Shown here one piece after another: positions 12,493 to 20,780 of a stretch of DNA of 54,327 nucleotides (position 1 is the stretch's first letter; each line of letters opens with the position of its first letter). The notes under the pieces are model-generated. The model did not search any database and was not told where the DNA came from. It was given only the letters and a program-made list of their open reading frames with translations. The position numbers and the translations under genes were made by a program. Origin of the DNA: Propionibacteriaceae bacterium (GTDB taxonomy: Bacteria > Actinomycetota > Actinomycetes > Propionibacteriales > Propionibacteriaceae); assembly GCA_031267295.1 (NCBI GenBank), contig JAIRZI010000031.1, forward strand, positions 1-54,327. Direction: 5' to 3'.

Positions 12493-14130
12493 TTAAAATC
12501 CGTACGCTAATCGCTCGGGGCGCAACCGTTTTAGTTCAATATCGCTATGAGTGGCGAAATACTCCAACAGTAGCTCGCTCATTGAGACGGTTATCTCAGC
12601 CAACGGGTGCTTGCCTACGTACATGGGGTACTCCCCGGCACCAGAAGCGCGATAGTTGTTTAAACAAATTCGGATGTGATCGTCTGGCGCAATGGGAGTG
12701 CCATCCCAGCGAGCTAATCTGGTGACTCGTTTGCCGGGCGGCAAACTAATATCGAAAGCGTAGTCAATCCCGGCGAAGAAGTCGTAGCTATAATGTTCGA
12801 TCTTTGGTACTAGGAAAGCCGCCGACACTGCTAGGTTCCCGGCGGCATCCAATGTCAGATACTCGGCGCTGCGTTCAATGGCGGCTTTGAGTTCCGCTCC
12901 AGTTAGTTGCAACGTCAGTAGGGTGTTGGCGTACGGATACGTTGCCAGAATGTCGCGGGTAGTGACGGTGGTGTTGAATCCGGCGATTTCATTTGCAAGC
13001 GACGATACCGCCACCTCAGCGCCGGTTGCTGCAAGCTGCACCTGGTTTACAAAATCTGCAATAGGCGATCCGTTCGCCGCCATCCGCTCCCTAGTATCAG
13101 GTTTCAGCGCGTAAGACAGTTGCCCCACCGGCTTATCAAGCCAGTTTTGCAGATCGTTTTCCAACGGTAGCAGTGCGCGAGCAACGGATGCAACGCGCGG
13201 GTTTGCAACTATATTTGACGAGGTTGGCGCATCTGGTGCAGCTAGAACCCAAGGTTCTGGAGCCGACAATCCGCTGATGCCGCTACGGGGAGTGACCAGT
13301 TCAGACAGCGACACCTCCCAGCGTCGTCCCGCAGCTAGCTCGGCACTCCCGTGTTCTACCAACTCCAAGTGGCAGTACTGGCGGCCGTATTCACCCGGCT
13401 GTATGGTGAAAGTGCCCTGTACTAGCCGTCCTGGAGTGGGGTTGTGTTGATGCCCGCAGAGCAGCAAGTCAAAATCGAGTTCTTCGCAGATACGATAACC
13501 AACATTCTCATTCGTTTTAGAAACGACCGCACCGGTTGCGGTGTCTCGTTCGTAACCGCCGTGGTACAAACACACCATGATGTCACAGCGCCCACGTAGC
13601 TCGTCGGCCGCCTGCCGTAGTGCCTCAAACGGGTCGCTCACTTTGATGCCAACCAGGTTCTCCGGTTGTTCCCAAACATTCACCCAATCGGTGACGGCTC
13701 CGGCCACCCCGACCTTAACTCCGTTACCTGTAGTAAGCACGACTGGCGGAAATAGCGCTTTCCCGGCAGCATCAGTGATGTTCTGACAGACGAAAGCAGC
13801 GCCGCCTTTGCGTAACTGTGTTACATAGTCAGCGAGGTATCGCCATCCATAGTTGAAATCATGATTCCCGGCAGTTGCCACGTGGTAACCGCATTCAATA
13901 AAAGCTTGCGCTATGGGAGCTGGGCTATGCAGTTTAGTGGCGCAGTAGTAGCCGAACGCAGACCCTTGCAAAGTGTCGCCATTGTCGAACACCAATGTTT
14001 CGGCATCAATGTCGAACTCCTGAGCGCAGGCAAGCATCCCCATTGGGGAGGGGGTGTGATCGGCATACCGCGTTGGGTACAGGTGAGAATGTGTGTCCGA
14101 TGTGTAGTAAATGCGCAGCCGTCTACCCAT
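12493..14130 (-). CDS. 5'-nucleotidase/UshA-like metallophosphoesterase, cytoplasmic
   Basis: A two-domain protein of about 545 residues. The N-terminal calcineurin-like phosphoesterase domain has SDTHSH (metal-binding D and H), FDNGDTLQGS, GNHDFNYGW and CGHQHNPTPG. The C-terminal 5'-nucleotidase domain has DILATYPYANTLLTLQLTG and YDFFAGIDYAFDIS, with the usual F/Y substrate clamp region. Unlike UshA it has no signal peptide, so it probably acts inside the cell on imported phosphate esters. I prefer the ATG at 14130 (GGAG 6 bases upstream) over 14142. It is the last gene after phnE, 22 bp downstream, so probably part of the importer operon. Confidence 0.88.
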   Translation of the reverse strand: MGRRLRIYYTSDTHSHLYPTRYADHTPSPMGMLACAQEFDIDAETLVFDNGDTLQGSAFGYYCATKLHSPAPIAQAFIECGYHVATAGNHDFNYGWRYLADYVTQLRKGGAAFVCQNITDAAGKALFPPVVLTTGNGVKVGVAGAVTDWVNVWEQPENLVGIKVSDPFEALRQAADELRGRCDIMVCLYHGGYERDTATGAVVSKTNENVGYRICEELDFDLLLCGHQHNPTPGRLVQGTFTIQPGEYGRQYCHLELVEHGSAELAAGRRWEVSLSELVTPRSGISGLSAPEPWVLAAPDAPTSSNIVANPRVASVARALLPLENDLQNWLDKPVGQLSYALKPDTRERMAANGSPIADFVNQVQLAATGAEVAVSSLANEIAGFNTTVTTRDILATYPYANTLLTLQLTGAELKAAIERSAEYLTLDAAGNLAVSAAFLVPKIEHYSYDFFAGIDYAFDISLPPGKRVTRLARWDGTPIAPDDHIRICLNNYRASGAGEYPMYVGKHPLAEITVSMSELLLEYFATHSDIELKRLRPERLAYGF

Positions 14131-14152
14131 GATATGCTCCATAACCGTCTCA

Positions 14153-15013
14153 TCAACCTTGTGCTAACTTCACCCGTATTCGGGTGGATGCCACTTCGAT
14201 CATCAGAATTAACAACAACAACCCCCACAGGATTGCTCCAGCTTCGCTCCAGCGATACGCCTGCATGGCAAAGATCAGCGGGGCACCTATGCCGCCCGCA
14301 CCCACCAAACCAAGCACCGTAGCATCACGTAGGTTCATATCGAAACGGTAAATGATAGTGGAGAGAAAATCTGGAATAAGTTGCGCAATAATGCCAAAAC
14401 GAATCTTCTGAAACAGTGTGCAACCTGCTGCGTCCAAAGATTCCAGTATGCGAGTGTCGAGGTCTTCAATGTACTCGATGTACATCTTTGCCACCATACC
14501 GATGCTCGCCAACCCCATCGTCATCAACCCTGCGAACGGGCCTGGGCCGGTGACACGCATAAACATCAATCCGTATACCATCACCGGTACGGTGCGGATA
14601 GCCATCAGCACCGTACGCCCAATCAAAGCCAACGGAGCGGGTACGATATTGGTGGCTGAAACAAACGCTAAAGGTACGGCAAGTACCGCCCCTACCAAGG
14701 TGCCCAGAAACGCGATACAGATAGTTTCAAACAGCAGATAGGCAACGGACTTCTCACTCAACGAGAATAATAAAGCCTTGTCAGGGTGGATTAACCCAGA
14801 AAAGATATTGTTGACGATCTTCATGCCGCCCTCAGTCATGTTAGCCAGATCAACCGCAGACGACGACCACGCCAGCAGTGCGCCCAAGATAACGAGCACG
14901 ATAATGTTACGCCGCCAAGAACGTGGCTCACTTAGCAAGGCGCGCTGCACTGGGGTGGCATCAAGTAGGGCGTCTTTGACGCCAGGATCAATTTTCGAGA
15001 GGTTCTTTGTCAT
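14153..15013 (-). CDS. phnE: phosphonate-type ABC transporter permease (PhnE-like, second)
   Basis: A membrane subunit of about 286 residues with five or six helices and the binding-protein-dependent permease EAA-like loop (LDAAGCTLFQKIRFGIIAQL). The end of the PhnE family is recognisable in NLRDATVLGLVGAGGIGAPL. I chose the ATG at 15013, which has GGGGAG 8 bases upstream; the GTG at 15031 overlaps the stop of the previous gene. It pairs with the neighbouring permease to form the channel for the PhnC ATPase. Confidence 0.9.
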   Translation of the reverse strand: MTKNLSKIDPGVKDALLDATPVQRALLSEPRSWRRNIIVLVILGALLAWSSSAVDLANMTEGGMKIVNNIFSGLIHPDKALLFSLSEKSVAYLLFETICIAFLGTLVGAVLAVPLAFVSATNIVPAPLALIGRTVLMAIRTVPVMVYGLMFMRVTGPGPFAGLMTMGLASIGMVAKMYIEYIEDLDTRILESLDAAGCTLFQKIRFGIIAQLIPDFLSTIIYRFDMNLRDATVLGLVGAGGIGAPLIFAMQAYRWSEAGAILWGLLLLILMIEVASTRIRVKLAQG

Positions 15014-15027
15014 TTCGCCAGCTCCCC

Positions 15028-15921
15028 TCACGTCAACTTCTTGCGTAGGTAGTGGCTAATCCACTCAATGAACACTACGGTGGCGAACAGCAACACAAAC
15101 ACCATGCCCACGTTGGGATACTGTCGCCACTGCACGTTCTCGTTAAGAGTCAAACCGATACCGCCAGCACCGACGTAGCCCAGGATGGCGGCATAACGCA
15201 CATTGCCTTCAAAACAGTACAGTGACGCTGAAAGATAAGCCGGTAACACCTGCGGCATGATGGCTGTCCAGAAAGTAGCCGGACGAGTGGCGCCTAGCGC
15301 AATCATGGCCTCATCTGGACCCATGTCGGCGGTTTCAATCATCTCGTATAGCTGTTTACCAAGATAACTAAAAGTGAACAGCCCAATAGCGATAGTACCC
15401 GCCATAGTGCCTAACCCAAACACGAAAGTGGCGATGAGTGCCGTAATCAAACTTGGTAACGTGCGCACCACTGCCAGTATGCCGCGCGCCACCATTAACA
15501 CCACCTTGTTACGCACCATATTGGACGATGCCACCACCGCGAGCGGAATAGCCAACACTGCGCCGGTAAACGATCCGATAACGCTCATCTTGATAGTGTC
15601 GAGCAGCGGTCCAAGTACCTTATGCCAGTAGTTCCAGTTTGGCGGAAACATGTTGCCGATGATTACAAAGAACTGCTTGCCGCGAGTTACTAGCACAGTA
15701 AGGCTGAAATCTGTCATGTAGATGGAGAGCACGCTGAACGCCAACACAAAAATCAGAATTATTGGCACTCGCGAGCGTGGCTCCCATACTTCGGTACCAT
15801 CGGCGAGATATGACTTGGTTGGTTTGAATATTTGGTCAAACCGAGTTAGTTTGGCACCAACAACAACGCGATGCTCGGACGTATCCGATGTCGCTTTAAC
15901 TGCGGTGGGTACGGTAGTCAT
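15028..15921 (-). CDS. phnE: phosphonate-type ABC transporter permease (PhnE-like, first)
   Basis: 297 residues. A cytoplasmic N-terminal stretch of about 50 residues precedes the first helix (VPIILIFVLAFSVLSIY). The EAA-like loop is MIALGATRPATFWTAIMPQV and the PhnE-type end is NVRYAAILGYVGAGGIGLTL. The ATG overlaps the phnC stop (ATGA) and has GGAGG 7 bases upstream, so the two are translationally coupled. Two different permease genes suggest a heterodimeric channel, as in several phosphonate and phosphite importers. Confidence 0.92.
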   Translation of the reverse strand: MTTVPTAVKATSDTSEHRVVVGAKLTRFDQIFKPTKSYLADGTEVWEPRSRVPIILIFVLAFSVLSIYMTDFSLTVLVTRGKQFFVIIGNMFPPNWNYWHKVLGPLLDTIKMSVIGSFTGAVLAIPLAVVASSNMVRNKVVLMVARGILAVVRTLPSLITALIATFVFGLGTMAGTIAIGLFTFSYLGKQLYEMIETADMGPDEAMIALGATRPATFWTAIMPQVLPAYLSASLYCFEGNVRYAAILGYVGAGGIGLTLNENVQWRQYPNVGMVFVLLFATVVFIEWISHYLRKKLT

Positions 15922-16691
15922 TCCACTACCTCCAGTTCCGCTTCACTGCCGGGAATCTTCCCCTGATAAATCACATCTAGAATCTCGGGGGTGACATCTG
16001 TGGTTGAGCCGTCATAGACGATGCGTCCAGCTCTGATGCCCACTACACGATCAGCATAATCAAGCGCCAATTCGACGTGGTGGATGTTGATAAGAATGGA
16101 GATGTTCAGGTCTTCGTTGATACGTCGGAAATCACCCATCACTTGTCGAGCGGTCACCGGGTCGAGCGCCGCCACCGGCTCGTCCGCCAAGATGATACTA
16201 GGGTCTTGCGCCAGGGTGCGCGCCAGCGCGACTCGCTGCTGTTGCCCACCGGAAAGTTGATCGGCGCGAGTGTAAGCCTTGTCAAGGATGCCCACCTTAT
16301 CGAGCGCTTCCAGTGCGCTCACCTTGTCAGCTTTGGTGTATAGACCTAGCAGCACGCGCCAAAACGGCATATCCGGCACTTTCGCAGTGAGTACATTACG
16401 GATAACAGTGGTGCGAGTCACCAAGTTGAAAGATTGAAACACCATACCGATACGGCGACGGAAACGGCGTAATGCCTTACCGGTGAGGGAATGGACAGAT
16501 ATTTCGTCCACGCTCAGCGTGCCGGAGGTGATGTCGTGCATCTTATTGATGCATCTGATGAGGGTGGATTTCCCGGCACCCGAAAGCCCAATGATAGCCA
16601 CAAACTCACCTTGCTCAATGGTGAGTGACACTTCGTCCAACCCTTTGACCCCGTTGGGGTAAACCTTGGACACATTATCGAAGATAATCAT
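15918..16691 (-). CDS. phnC: phosphonate-type ABC transporter ATP-binding protein
   Basis: A PhnC-type ATPase of about 257 residues: Walker A GLSGAGKST (35-43), Q-loop GMVFQSFNL, signature LSGGQQQRVALAR, Walker B IILADEPVAALD and H-loop NIHHVELAL. I chose the ATG at 16691 (AGG 8 bases upstream, protein beginning MIIFDNVSKVYPNG); an in-frame start at 16730 would add 13 residues that do not match the family. It overlaps phnE by 4 bp. A 307-bp gap with a strong hairpin separates it from phnD, which probably sets a higher level of the binding protein than of the membrane parts. Confidence 0.94.
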   Translation of the reverse strand: MIIFDNVSKVYPNGVKGLDEVSLTIEQGEFVAIIGLSGAGKSTLIRCINKMHDITSGTLSVDEISVHSLTGKALRRFRRRIGMVFQSFNLVTRTTVIRNVLTAKVPDMPFWRVLLGLYTKADKVSALEALDKVGILDKAYTRADQLSGGQQQRVALARTLAQDPSIILADEPVAALDPVTARQVMGDFRRINEDLNISILINIHHVELALDYADRVVGIRAGRIVYDGSTTDVTPEILDVIYQGKIPGSEAELEVVE

Positions 16692-16843
16692 CTTCATCGC
16701 CTCGCTTACTGCCCGTACTTCGTCGTACATGGGGCATCAATAGTAGCGCATCGGATACCGATACCGATACCGGCGCAGAGCACACATCACAGTACGCAGA
16801 ATGAGAATGCTATCGCAAAGCAGCAGGATAGTGCGCAACTCTA

Positions 16844-16865
16844 TTTTGCAAATCTTTTGCAAATC
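16844..16865. promoter_or_regulatory. perfect 11-bp tandem direct repeat in phnD-phnC gap
   Basis: TTTTGCAAATC occurs twice with no spacer (16844-16854 and 16855-16865). An 11-bp period places both copies on one face of the helix, the spacing used by OmpR/PhoB/PhoP-type response regulators. A related TTTTGC-phased array lies upstream of phnD. It could be an operator for an internal phnC promoter. The repeat is seen; its role is inferred. Confidence 0.5.
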
Positions 16866-16926
16866 TGACGTTTCGCTGTTTTATGCGACATCTAGCAAAA
16901 CGCCAAGTATCACCATATCGCTGGCT

Positions 16927-16967
16927 TAGACGACGGAACGAGCTGGTTTACCCGTTCCGTTCGTCTA
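16927..16967 (-). terminator. intergenic hairpin between phnD and phnC
   Basis: TAGACGACGGAACG and CGTTCCGTTCGTCTA form a near-perfect inverted repeat with one bulged base and a ~12-base loop. It lies 32 bp after the phnD stop. No T-run follows, so it is more likely a partial terminator or an mRNA-stabilising hairpin than a complete stop. Confidence 0.55.
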
Positions 16968-16998
16968 GCCGATAGCGCTTAGCTGATTAGCAATCTCA

Positions 16999-18054
16999 CT
17001 AAGCGTTCTGCATCTCCTGGATGACCTTTTGTGCTTTGCGAGCTGGGTCATAATCAGCAGAGGTTGCCGGAGCATAACCCTCATGGGCGTATATCTTGAC
17101 AACTTCTTTACCCTCAGGGGTGTTACCAATGTTAATCAAGGCCTGTGCGATGGCTTCTTTGAAACCGGGGTTGTTGTTCAGCGTGGCGGAACTCTTGGAA
17201 ACGGACACGGTGTCATTGAAGATTTTATCGGTGACACCCACGATGCAGGTTTCGTCCCAGATACTCGCAGTACGGCTGTACTCCGCCGTCCACTTGTCTT
17301 CGTAGTCACGACGACCATCAGCATAGACAGTCAGCAGATCCACCTGGCCGGAAGCAAGTCGCGCAAACGAAGTGCCATAGGAATCGGATTGCGCGGAGCG
17401 CGTAAGATCACTGACGCTCTTCTGATAGCTGTCGAGCAGCCACAGCGTCGGGTAGATGTAACCGGCGGAAGAAGTGGAACTCATCACAGCCCAGTTAGCA
17501 GCGTCAAGGTCATCCCAAGTGAGTTCCGTGCCGGAGTTAACAGTGTTACATAATTCCTGACCTTTAGCAGACGGACCGGCGATAACAAGAGCGCGGTAAA
17601 AACTTACCTGAGTGTCAACAGCAGTAGTTGGCTTCTCATCGTTCCAGACTTTAGCCTCCGGGGAATCGATAGACAGACCAGCGCGCGTAGAAGCAAGAAT
17701 CACCTCGGCGCCTTCGTCATAAAGCACGTAAGTACCTCCGGGGATAAAACCCACATCAACGGAACCAGCATCAAGTGATTCGCCGACGGCTTCGTAGGTA
17801 GTGCCTACAGAGATTTCAACATCACTGAGCGCGTAACCGGCCTTGGCTAACTCTGCGATAAGCATTTCTTTTAGCGGCGCGGTAGCGGTGATGATTTCAG
17901 CAGGCTCGCGGGATGGCACGAATGCTACTTTCAAAGTGTCAATCTTCACCGGGCCGGTTGTAGTAGAAATGGGATCAGTATCATCGGATGAACAACCGCT
18001 GACTAGACCTACCAGCAGGGCGCACGCAAATGCGCTGCTTAAGAGTTTTTTCAT
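16999..18054 (-). CDS. phnD: phosphonate-type ABC transporter substrate-binding lipoprotein
   Basis: 351 residues beginning with a lipoprotein signal MKKLLSSAFACALLVGLVSGC, of which the lipobox cysteine is residue 21. The PhnD-like fold follows: LKVAFVPSREPAEI, a DAGSVDVGFIPGGTYVL segment lining the pocket, SSTSSAGYIYPTLWLL (the phosphate-contacting STSSAGY motif of the family) and a C-terminal helix. It is the first gene of the operon. Whether it prefers phosphonate, phosphite or phosphate esters cannot be told from sequence; no C-P lyase or phosphonatase is in the window. Confidence 0.93.
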   Translation of the reverse strand: MKKLLSSAFACALLVGLVSGCSSDDTDPISTTTGPVKIDTLKVAFVPSREPAEIITATAPLKEMLIAELAKAGYALSDVEISVGTTYEAVGESLDAGSVDVGFIPGGTYVLYDEGAEVILASTRAGLSIDSPEAKVWNDEKPTTAVDTQVSFYRALVIAGPSAKGQELCNTVNSGTELTWDDLDAANWAVMSSTSSAGYIYPTLWLLDSYQKSVSDLTRSAQSDSYGTSFARLASGQVDLLTVYADGRRDYEDKWTAEYSRTASIWDETCIVGVTDKIFNDTVSVSKSSATLNNNPGFKEAIAQALINIGNTPEGKEVVKIYAHEGYAPATSADYDPARKAQKVIQEMQNA

Positions 18055-18158
18055 TTGGGTCTTCTTTGACTTGTAGTTGTATTGGTGGTTCCCAGCGACC
18101 TGCGGAAGAAAGTTTCGCCGGGATGTGCCAGCCTACCACCCGATTACTAGATTTTGCA

Positions 18159-18202
18159 GTATCGCAAAACTTCGGTAAAATATCTGTAAATTTCGTGCAA
18201 AA
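18159..18202 (-). promoter_or_regulatory. four 11-bp-phased TTTTGC-like units upstream of phnD
   Basis: Read on the minus strand, four consecutive 11-mers start TTTTGC, ATTTAC, TTTTAC and TTTTGC. They end 105 bp before the phnD start. The same core and period occur as a perfect pair at 16844-16865. The layout resembles direct-repeat operators of PhoP/PhoB-type regulators, so phosphate control is plausible. The two outer units also contain a TTTTGC...GCAAAA inverted pair at 18152-18169, so a different regulator reading a palindrome is possible. Confidence 0.45.
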
Positions 18203-18398
18203 TGCAGCTTAAAGGTGCCTTATTGTGCGGCAAACGCGAAATATTCCAGATAAGACAGTACGCCCTCATAAGGTGAGCGTCTAACGACTAGCTTGAAGTT
18301 GCGCAGATTAGCGAGCGATACGGGTAAAAGAGCATATTCGAGGAGAATATTTTCCACTCAGATGCTGCGCTGTCAGTAGGGGCACGTAGTCTATAGGT

Positions 18399-20780
18399 GT
18401 GGATGATGAACTTAACGAAGCGACTGACGGTGAACGCTCGGAGAGCTACTACGACACGAGCAGTCCGGGATTATTCGATGCCGCCACTGCGGAAAACGCT
18501 GCGAGTACTGCACCGGTGGATCCGGAAGACTCCCCGTCGGATGCCAAAAAAGTAGCCGCTGCACCGAAAAAGGTAAAAACATCCAAAAAGAAGAAACCGG
18601 CAGCGCAGCCTACTGACATGACACCTACCATTGACGAGCAGATAGCGGATGCGGAAGCAGCGGTTGAATCTATGGCCAGTGACGCAGGCAAACAGCCCCA
18701 AACGTTGGCGCTCTACCGGCGGTATCGCCCCGACACATTCAATGAAGTAATCGGCGAAGAACATGTCACCGAACCGCTAAAAAGAGCGCTTATCAACAAC
18801 CGAGTCAACCATGCTTACCTGTTTTCTGGGCCGCGGGGCTGCGGCAAAACAACAAGCGCACGCATCTTGGCACGCTGCTTAAACTGTGAACAAGGCCCCA
18901 CCCCTACTCCCTGCGGAGTATGCCAGAGTTGCCGTGAGTTGGCGACCGGTGGCTCCGGTTCCGTAGACGTAATCGAGATAGACGCGGCATCTCATGGCCA
19001 GGTCGATGATGCCCGCGATCTGCGAGATCGCGTCTACTATGTGCCAGTCAACTCGCGCTACAAGATTTATATAGTTGACGAAGCCCACATGGTCACCACG
19101 GCAGGGTTCAATGCACTACTGAAAGTGGTGGAAGAGCCACCGCCACACGTCAAATTCATCTTTGCAACCACTGAACCGGAAAAGGTGATTGACACTATTC
19201 GTTCTCGCACGCATCACTATCCTTTCCGGTTGGTACCTCCAAAGGTGATGCAGAGCTATCTTGAGAAAGTCTGCGCCGAAGAAAACGTAGCAGTAGAACA
19301 GGGGGTACTGGCACTGGTGGTACGCGCCGGAGCCGGATCGGTGCGCGATTCGCTATCGGTACTCGACCAGTTACTAGGAGCCGCTAGCAAGGAGGGCGTT
19401 ACTTATGCCCACGCTGCCGCACTGCTCGGCTACACTCCAGATTGGTTGCTGGATGAGTTAGTGGATGCGTTTGGTGATGCGTGGGGTACAGGCGTGTTCG
19501 CGGCGATCGACAAGGTGATTGAGGTGGGGCTTGATCCGAAGCATTTTGCGGAAGATTTGCTGCAAAGGCTGCGTGATCTGATGATACTGGCACGGGTTTC
19601 CGATGCAGTGAAAACGGGGTTGCTCGACCTCCCAGAAGATCAAGGTGCCAAATACGCCGAACAGGCATCCAAACTAGGCCCGGATGAGTTGACTCGTGCG
19701 GCTGAGGTGATTGCCGAAGGATTGACGGCGATGCGCGGCACTACCGCACCACGCCTACATCTGGAGTTGATGTGCGCGCGTGTGCTGTTACCCAGCGCTG
19801 ACACCGGGCCGCGGTCTGTGGCGGCACGAGTGGAACGCTTGGAAAGAATAGTGAATAGCGGCGGTGTTAGTGCTGATGCGACAGGTAACGTAACTCCCCG
19901 ACCACGCTCAGTTGTTGCTACGTCTAATTCGCCGTTAACGACTCAACCACCCGCAAATCAGGCGGTATCTTCACCGCGCCCCACCCCGCAATCAACTCAA
20001 CTGTCGGCGGGGCAACAACCAGCAGCACAACAGCAACGACAGCAGCAAGCCGGGGAGATAACTGCGCCACCACAGCAAGCTCCGGTGAACCAGCATCTCG
20101 TAGCGCAACAACCCGCTGAACAACGACCTGTTACCCAACAACCTACTGAACCACACCCCACCACCCAACAACCGGGAACAACATATGCCCCACTCACCGC
20201 AGCTACCGATCTATCCGCAGTTCAAGCTTCCGTATCCGGCGGCGCTGACGCGGTGTGGGGTCAACTGCTTGCCGCAGTTTCTGAAAAGAAAGTGTTCCGC
20301 GCGTTACTGTCACAGTTCAAACCGGTGACCATTGACGCCGATGTGCTCGTCATTGAAGCGCAACCGGCTTTAGTGCAGTCACAAGGTGGCCGTGCCACAG
20401 AGGTGGCGAACCAAATGTTGTCGCAGTTAAGCGGCGCTCTGGTGCGTCAGGTGCGAGTGATTGCTGTCGGTATGGGCGGACTACCTGCGGCCGCCAACTC
20501 AATACCTACCGCTACAGCGGCATCCGTCGGAGAACCCACACCGCAACCGGCAACCGGCAGCGAACCCAGGCAAACCTCGCCAGCTCCAACTGCACCCCCA
20601 GATACTCCCCCGCCGCCACCGTTAACCCCAGCGCCGCTAAATTATGTTGACGGCGGTAGCGAAAGTAGCGATGAAGACACCGAGATTAGCGACGACGACA
20701 TCGAACTCGGCACTACCGGAGCTGTCGGGTTGTTACAACAAGAGTTCGGAGCAGAGATTATCACCGAAGAAGATTTGTAG
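18399..20780 (+). CDS. dnaX: DNA polymerase III subunit gamma/tau
   Basis: The clamp-loader ATPase, 793 residues. The canonical start of the family (LALYRRYRP) occurs only at residue 103, after an acidic, then lysine-rich, then acidic low-complexity extension. The AAA+ core has Walker A GPRGCGKT (144-151), a zinc cluster (CLNCEQGPTPTPCGVCQSC), Walker B with YIVDEAHMV, and FIFATTEPEKV with sensor SRTHHYPF. Residues about 480-610 are a Pro/Gln-rich linker, and the last part is the tau-type C-terminal domain and an acidic tail. The start is a GTG with only a weak, distant AGGGG; no internal ATG before the core has a better site. It is followed by ybaB and recR in the usual order. Confidence 0.95.
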   Translation: MDDELNEATDGERSESYYDTSSPGLFDAATAENAASTAPVDPEDSPSDAKKVAAAPKKVKTSKKKKPAAQPTDMTPTIDEQIADAEAAVESMASDAGKQPQTLALYRRYRPDTFNEVIGEEHVTEPLKRALINNRVNHAYLFSGPRGCGKTTSARILARCLNCEQGPTPTPCGVCQSCRELATGGSGSVDVIEIDAASHGQVDDARDLRDRVYYVPVNSRYKIYIVDEAHMVTTAGFNALLKVVEEPPPHVKFIFATTEPEKVIDTIRSRTHHYPFRLVPPKVMQSYLEKVCAEENVAVEQGVLALVVRAGAGSVRDSLSVLDQLLGAASKEGVTYAHAAALLGYTPDWLLDELVDAFGDAWGTGVFAAIDKVIEVGLDPKHFAEDLLQRLRDLMILARVSDAVKTGLLDLPEDQGAKYAEQASKLGPDELTRAAEVIAEGLTAMRGTTAPRLHLELMCARVLLPSADTGPRSVAARVERLERIVNSGGVSADATGNVTPRPRSVVATSNSPLTTQPPANQAVSSPRPTPQSTQLSAGQQPAAQQQRQQQAGEITAPPQQAPVNQHLVAQQPAEQRPVTQQPTEPHPTTQQPGTTYAPLTAATDLSAVQASVSGGADAVWGQLLAAVSEKKVFRALLSQFKPVTIDADVLVIEAQPALVQSQGGRATEVANQMLSQLSGALVRQVRVIAVGMGGLPAAANSIPTATAASVGEPTPQPATGSEPRQTSPAPTAPPDTPPPPPLTPAPLNYVDGGSESSDEDTEISDDDIELGTTGAVGLLQQEFGAEIITEEDL

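Follow-up and report, generated by a model that had tools for sequence, protein, structure and literature searches.

Two spots in the phn operon of a Propionibacteriaceae bacterium carry 11-bp direct repeats, and the question is whether they mark binding sites of a regulator and, if so, of which one. An earlier note on the window (the whole stretch of 54,327 nucleotides that was analysed) had described a perfect tandem 11-mer in the gap between phnD and phnC and four 11-mers upstream of phnD, had treated both spots as control points, and had proposed a distinct response regulator or a changed Pho box. The genome comprises 1,692,476 bases in 97 contigs and is 95.65% complete; several counts were made on 568,142 bases of it (568 kb). 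We propose that the array upstream of phnD, which is no standard Pho box, may serve a winged-helix regulator of OmpR/PhoB type as its operator, and we give this reading an even chance of being correct.

Upon searching the encoded proteins against Pfam and NCBIfam, we found a binding protein, an ATPase and two permeases in one operon, which makes this a PhnDCEE-type importer, with PhnD itself below the cut-offs for TIGR01098 and TIGR03431 (Table 1). No obvious signal peptide was seen by eye in the metallophosphoesterase encoded by the last gene.

Table 1. Features of the phn operon and its intergenic regions, with positions in the window.
Feature	Position	Strand	Remarks
5'-nucleotidase / 2',3'-cyclic phosphodiesterase-type metallophosphoesterase	12493..14142	-	last gene of the operon
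phnE, permease 2	14153..15031	-	TIGR01097 above cut-off
phnE, permease 1	15028..15921	-	TIGR01097 above cut-off
phnC, ATPase	15918..16697	-	TIGR02315 above cut-off; longest ORF starts at 16730
phnD-phnC gap	16698..16998	-	predicted highly structured RNA (z -4.47 and -5.24, on 16700-17000)
9-pair hairpin of the gap chain	16816-16843		
Perfect tandem duplication in the phnD-phnC gap	16844..16866	.	TTTTGCAAATC x2.1, Tandem Repeats Finder
8-pair hairpin formed by the duplication itself	16845-16863		TTTGCAAA-AGA-TTTGCAAA, as RNA
13-pair stem-loop	16865..16906	-	adjoins the tandem duplication
20-pair stem-loop	16923..16970	-	just downstream of the phnD stop codon
phnD, substrate-binding protein	16999..18054	-	Phosphonate-bd, PF12974
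Divergent phnD/dnaX intergenic region	18055..18398	.	contains the array
Four-unit 11-bp direct-repeat array	18159..18202	-	TTTTGCACGAA/ATTTACAGATA/TTTTACCGAAG/TTTTGCGATAC, phn coding strand, 18202 -> 18159
dnaX, divergent neighbour	18399..20780	+	

Both repeats described in the earlier note are present: the gap unit occurs twice at 16844-16865 on the plus strand with 100% identity, and the four 11-mers upstream of phnD lie on the minus strand. The words that it saw as shared between the two spots also exist, but it had mixed strands in comparing them, reading the gap on the plus and the array on the minus strand. Read along the phn coding strand, the array units have TTT-R-C in common, and on the plus strand the array reads GCAAA-N6-GTAAA-N6-GTAAA-N6-GCAAA, so that GYAAA with 6-bp spacers is found in 6/6 units (four at phnD and two in the gap). 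The core of the gap unit, TTTGCAAA, is palindromic, and the unit can therefore be read on either strand. The array keeps the 11-bp register of direct repeats, 104 bp separate it from phnD and 196 bp from dnaX, and the G+C content is 39.6% in 18140-18240 versus 52.9% in the window. This position, together with the phase, speaks for an operator. Against one, the phnD strand showed no sigma-70-like promoter downstream of the array. A single weak match, inside the array, is directed to dnaX, with the total number of matches at the level of shuffles.

Next, we examined how unusual the repeats are. The 11-bp self-similarity of each of the two phn intergenic regions was reached by 0/400 dinucleotide shuffles, which favours an operator and agrees with the earlier claim of a period like that of PhoB/PhoP-type operators. 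Neither the phnD upstream region nor the gap region has a second copy in 568 kb of genome, and a repeat-element origin was rejected on that ground. Across the genome, TTTRC-N6-TTTRC occurs at 19 exact places, compared with 18 for the reversed pattern, and 5/19 are the two phn spots. The two-unit form is thus at chance level, and TTTRC was rejected as a regulon motif; of the phosphate genes before which the earlier note had suggested looking for enrichment, pstS was covered, and its upstream region, like that of pitA, carries GTTCACC-like units, not TTTRC arrays. Three in-phase TTTRC units are found exactly only in the phnD array (two overlapping places), with 0 for the reversed control in the genome, which again favours an operator. 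When up to 3 mismatches are allowed, the three-unit form occurs at 241 places against 270 for the reversed pattern; a place with one mismatch, on contig 35, lies inside a 1008-aa frame. Furthermore, the 568,142 bases contain 2 places with four TTT words at 11-bp phase, one being the phnD array, and only the array keeps an extra column, a C, in 4/4 units. The wider pattern TTYRCA-N5-TTYRCA with at most one mismatch has 93 places in the genome against 103 for its reverse. Its 10 exact places comprise 3 at phn, 1 between phoP and pitA, and 6 inside ORFs as given by mechanical ORF lists, so that the only other intergenic exact match is the phoP box TTCACA-N5-TTCACA, which is probably autoregulatory.

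Self-similarity as such is less exclusive. Windows of 4x11 bp with a self-similarity of at least 0.75 occur at 8 distinct places in 568 kb, the phnD array included; some are of low complexity and another one lies in the window, at 14225. At eight places in 568 kb, such self-similarity would not by itself be unusual in a stretch of 54 kb. What is notable about the array is its position and the fact that its word appears again in the second intergenic gap of the operon. These counts bear on the possibility that there is no operator at all, only phased T-tracts in an A+T-rich promoter, perhaps with intrinsic bending, and an unrelated slippage duplication in the gap. The T-runs that recur at each turn, the low G+C content of the promoter and the seven other self-similar places all fit this account, as do the perfect tandem duplications, only 9-10 bp long, that occur at other places in the window, and a second tandem repeat in the phnD-phnC gap, GATACC x3.2 at window positions 16754-16772, near the start of phnC. 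It does not explain why the C after the T-run is kept in all four units, nor why the same word stands in the operon's other gap, where about 0.002 two-unit places are expected per 268-bp gap (from 14 non-phn places in 1.69 Mb). We regard it as rather unlikely, though far from negligible, and the phased C column is in turn a point in favour of the operator.

If the array is an operator, which resident protein could read it? Six OmpR-type DNA-binding domains are encoded in this genome. In a search of solved structures, one of these regulators is nearest to RegX3 (2oqr), its gene directly following pstSCAB and a histidine kinase; another is nearest to M. tuberculosis PhoP (3r0j/5ed4), its gene divergent from pitA; and a further one is nearest to GlnR, with 8hih/8hig as its best PDB matches. 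On contig 2 (L070: 7305-12984), a SenX3-like kinase gene and regX3 come directly after pstSCAB with no gap, the kinase ORF overlapping the end of pstB by 4 nt; no stretch of the kinase has the hydrophobicity typical of a membrane helix (highest 19-aa mean 1.44). PhoU gave 0 matches in the genome, with the control positive in 13/14 genomes. On contig 95 (L072: 9878-13748), pitA is divergent from the PhoP-type regulator and its kinase, and the intergenic region between them has TTCACA-N5-TTCACA near phoP and GTTCACC-like units towards pitA, which suggests that the RegX3 and PhoP-type regulators meet there.

The boxes of the two phosphate-type regulators were footprinted in relatives. A GTTCACC-N4-GTTCACC-type pair at 11-bp phase, the footprint of RegX3, was present on the coding strand in 25/25 pstS promoters (a pair being counted as present at 10 or more of 14 positions; the set consists of 25 matches, L138-L162, without the weaker rows L163-L167 and the rows without a locus). 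Similarly, the TTCACAG-type pair TCACAG-N5-TCACAG was found in 17/18 phoP promoters examined, with L120 lacking the box (18 matches, L108-L125; the remainder, all of at most 61% identity, was left out), and this box in relatives is likely autoregulatory. Scoring models were built without this genome, whose own promoters are among the 25 and the 17, from 24 pstS promoters for RegX3 and 16 phoP promoters for PhoP. Among 130,180 intergenic two-unit placements, the RegX3 model gave rank 1 to the genome's own pstS promoter, 147 to the phnD array and 2276 to the gap, and the PhoP model gave rank 1 to the own phoP promoter, 90 to the array and 944 to the gap. At two, three and four units, the rank of the array was 147, 76 and 36 with the RegX3 model and 90, 126 and 492 with the PhoP model.

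These ranks bear directly on a reading raised in the earlier note, a changed Pho box, here in the form of a degenerate Pho operator through which resident RegX3 or M. tuberculosis-type PhoP would induce phn in phosphate starvation. Both regulators are encoded, and Pho control is natural for phn operons; the general TTNAC orientation is retained in the coding-strand units, both models have their best local match at ATTTACAGATATTTTACCG, the RegX3 rank improves as units are added, and cooperative binding is possible on arrays of weak units according to passages of PMC4832192. Nevertheless, neither model picks out the arrays as it does its own promoter, and the PhoP rank worsens with more units. 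The core is indeed not GTTCACC, as the earlier note had stated: G1 and C4 are absent in 4/4 phnD units, and C3 of TTCACAG likewise. A canonical Pho box is rejected by both footprinted models, and we consider the degenerate form unlikely. Of the two proposals made earlier, a distinct response regulator may hold, but the genome's own GTTCACC-like boxes at pstS and before pitA indicate that its Pho box has not changed in general.

We also compared the array with the operators of GlnR. Passages of PMC3087709 describe GlnR operators as having 5+6 bp geometry, with four-unit tandem boxes at amtB and glnA, and the phn units agree in having 5-bp units, 6-bp spacers and an A at position 4 in 6/6 units on the plus strand. 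They do not agree at position 5, where an A stands in 6/6 units in place of the C (or T) of the AC-n9-AC core. The genome's own amtB promoter has the box GTAAC-N6-GCAAA-N6-GTAAC, one of whose units, GCAAA, also stands in the phn arrays. The pattern GYAA[AC]-N6 x3, chosen after seeing both sites, has no places in 568 kb other than phnD and the amtB promoter. No glnA was found in the genome stretches taken. With a GlnR model made from consensus words in Table 2 of PMC10704036, not from relatives, the amtB promoter came first at three and four units. The phnD array ranked 306 of 131,514 with two units, 95 of 124,338 with three and 36 of 117,500 with four.

As a special case of the OmpR-type operator, GlnR would thus place the imported phn operon under nitrogen control, the array being a double box and the gap a single box, GCAAA-N6-GCAAA. 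The presence of a GlnR orthologue, the shared GCAAA unit and the published architecture point this way. The ranks, no better than those of the RegX3 model, the missing C5, the orientation away from phnD and the post-hoc nature of the comparison point the other way. Additionally, 2/4 coding-strand units have GC, and a passage of PMC3662644 reports that binding of M. smegmatis GlnR was abolished by mutating AC to GC or GG. No report of GlnR control of a phn operon like this was found in a limited literature search, though one may still exist. We hold GlnR control to be quite improbable. For the wider class of OmpR-type operators, the shared GYAA[AC] form is a point in favour, as is the geometry shared with the 7+4-bp sites of PhoP and the 5+6-bp sites of GlnR (passages of PMC4832192 and PMC3087709), and against it stand the post-hoc nature of this comparison, the missing C5 and a GYAAA orientation that points to dnaX. 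Each model recovers the target known for it, but the phn arrays are picked out by none, so no resident model fits, which also counts against the operator.

The history of the operon offers a separate line of evidence. PhnD is 53% identical to its homologue in a Clostridia MAG, in which the gene order is as here, phosphoesterase included, and PhnC is 72% identical to the Clostridia homologue compared with 49% to a system of the same family in G024. In 393 other genomes of the class nothing matched PhnD at E<=1e-40, and among the relatives only matches of at most 32% identity were found, in 3/56. Judged from these comparisons, the operon was probably imported by transfer from Firmicutes. The G+C content of the phn genes, 51-55%, already equals that of the window, and the transfer is therefore probably not recent. 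No such array was found in the promoters of the Clostridia and Erysipelotrichaceae homologues or of the 32%-identical system in G024, and import of the operator along with the operon was rejected on this ground. Because the Clostridia promoter is without the array, the array probably arose in the recipient. The same absence weighs against an operator, and since no relative shares the phnD promoter, the array cannot be footprinted, which weighs against it too. Import of the regulator along with the operon was likewise rejected: the candidate on contig 68 (L074: 4119-4514, minus strand) is a 131-aa OmpR-type DNA-binding fragment that lacks an intact receiver domain, seems to be what is left of a decayed response regulator, and is unlinked.

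A single exact three-unit TTTRC match was found in the relatives set of 56 other genomes, in G026 of the same family. It is intergenic, with an OmpR-type regulator gene on one side, whose product shares 40% identity with RegX3 here, and an ABC-transporter gene on the other. The array, on contig 102 (L194: 1451-2500), reads TTTGCC/TTTGCC/TTTACC with a fourth in-phase TTTAC two turns on, and it adjoins a kinase-regulator gene pair, which makes it a candidate operator of that regulator. For the phnD array this is a supporting parallel, suggesting a use of TTTRC arrays as OmpR-type operators in the family; numerically, it equals the one chance match of the reversed control in the same 56 genomes (G039), and one match against one control is no statistic.

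The duplication in the gap may have another meaning. Upon folding 16700-17000 (301 nt), we obtained an MFE of -113.6 kcal/mol at z -4.47, with 0/100 shuffles as stable, and z -5.24 in a second run, whereas 60 random 301-nt windows of the genome had a mean z of -0.47, with 1/60 at or below -4. These values suggest, for the gap only, that the duplication may work as RNA, and that the consecutive hairpins of 20, 13, 8 and 9 pairs may stabilise the phnD mRNA or cut read-through, with the outcome that more binding protein than transporter would be made. The gap also exceeds the 74 bp found in the Clostridia operon. On the other side, the hairpin of the duplication itself is weak (-5.6 kcal/mol), Rfam gave no match, and the phnD array has the same word, yet its region (18040-18180) is not strongly structured (z -1.38). 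We place this role of the gap slightly short of an even chance. With such a fold and hairpin chain, a role in mRNA stability or read-through suits the duplication about as well as a second operator does, and we consider a second site for the same protein and an RNA hairpin about equally likely. Of the two control points in the earlier note, the array thus retains an operator-like geometry, but the gap repeat may be an RNA hairpin.

Overall, the phnD array is in phase, well positioned, nearly unique in the genome and a poor match to the RegX3 and PhoP boxes, and from these properties of the sequence we infer that a protein may bind it. In the OmpR/PhoB-type reading, the regulator would bind head to tail, one subunit per 11-bp unit on one helix face, and the bound array would control transcription of the phnD-phnC-phnE-phnE-phosphoesterase operon, divergent from dnaX. 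If a protein does bind, a transporter operon that is probably foreign has gained a new, helically phased operator in the recipient, and being a phosphorus gene would be separable from being a Pho-box gene. A more specific and speculative version, which we consider a long shot, is that a Firmicutes-derived importer of organophosphorus compounds was wired to an orphan GlnR through newly arisen GYAAA double boxes and not to the phosphate regulators. The role of the importer would then be scavenging driven by nitrogen or carbon, for example of nucleotides or aminophosphonates, and the classical boxes of the phosphate regulators would persist at other genes. The boxes footprinted for RegX3 and PhoP in the lineage also offer a clean test of which phosphorus genes the classical regulators control.

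Finally, the array can be set beside the known boxes of the same general form. The B. subtilis PhoP box is TT(A/C/T)ACA-N5; it has the same 6+5-bp spacing and permits TTTACA as a half-site, but only 1/6 phn units fits. No B. subtilis-type PhoP was identified in this genome, and the contig 68 fragment, Firmicutes-like by eye only, is unlinked. The box of RegX3 and Streptomyces-type PhoP (GTTCACC-N4-GTTCACC) is the same 11-bp direct repeat of the OmpR family, and the phnD units likewise have T at 2-3 and C at 6 on the coding strand; beyond the missing G1 and C4, they differ in having A5 in only 2/4. The box of M. tuberculosis PhoP and C. glutamicum PhoR (TCACAGC-N4-TCACAGC) also consists of 11-bp direct repeats, for which multi-unit arrays are known. 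One phnD unit, TTTACAG, is close to it and the other three are without the CACAG core, unlike the genome's own phoP promoter, which keeps the classical TTCACAA-N4-TTCACAG. The C. glutamicum PhoR site is given as CCTGTGAAaatCCTGTGAA in a passage of PMC3353115, and its reverse complement, derived here, is TTCACAGGattTTCACAGG. For PhoP of M. tuberculosis and Streptomyces, passages of PMC4832192 state a 7+4-bp rule, with three and four repeats bound more tightly, and give the S. coelicolor and E. coli consensus sites; an 11-nt unit definition is given in a passage of PMC4415409. By the form of its units, the phnD array most resembles a GlnR box (gTnAC-n6-GaAAC; in M. smegmatis t/gTAAC-n6-Gc/aAAC), a post-hoc likeness that the scoring does not confirm. 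The phn units differ from it in the A for C at position 5 and in an orientation opposite to phnD, and they share with it the 5+6-bp spacing, the four tandem units, G1 and A4 in 6/6 units on the plus strand, and the GCAAA common to the genome's own amtB box.
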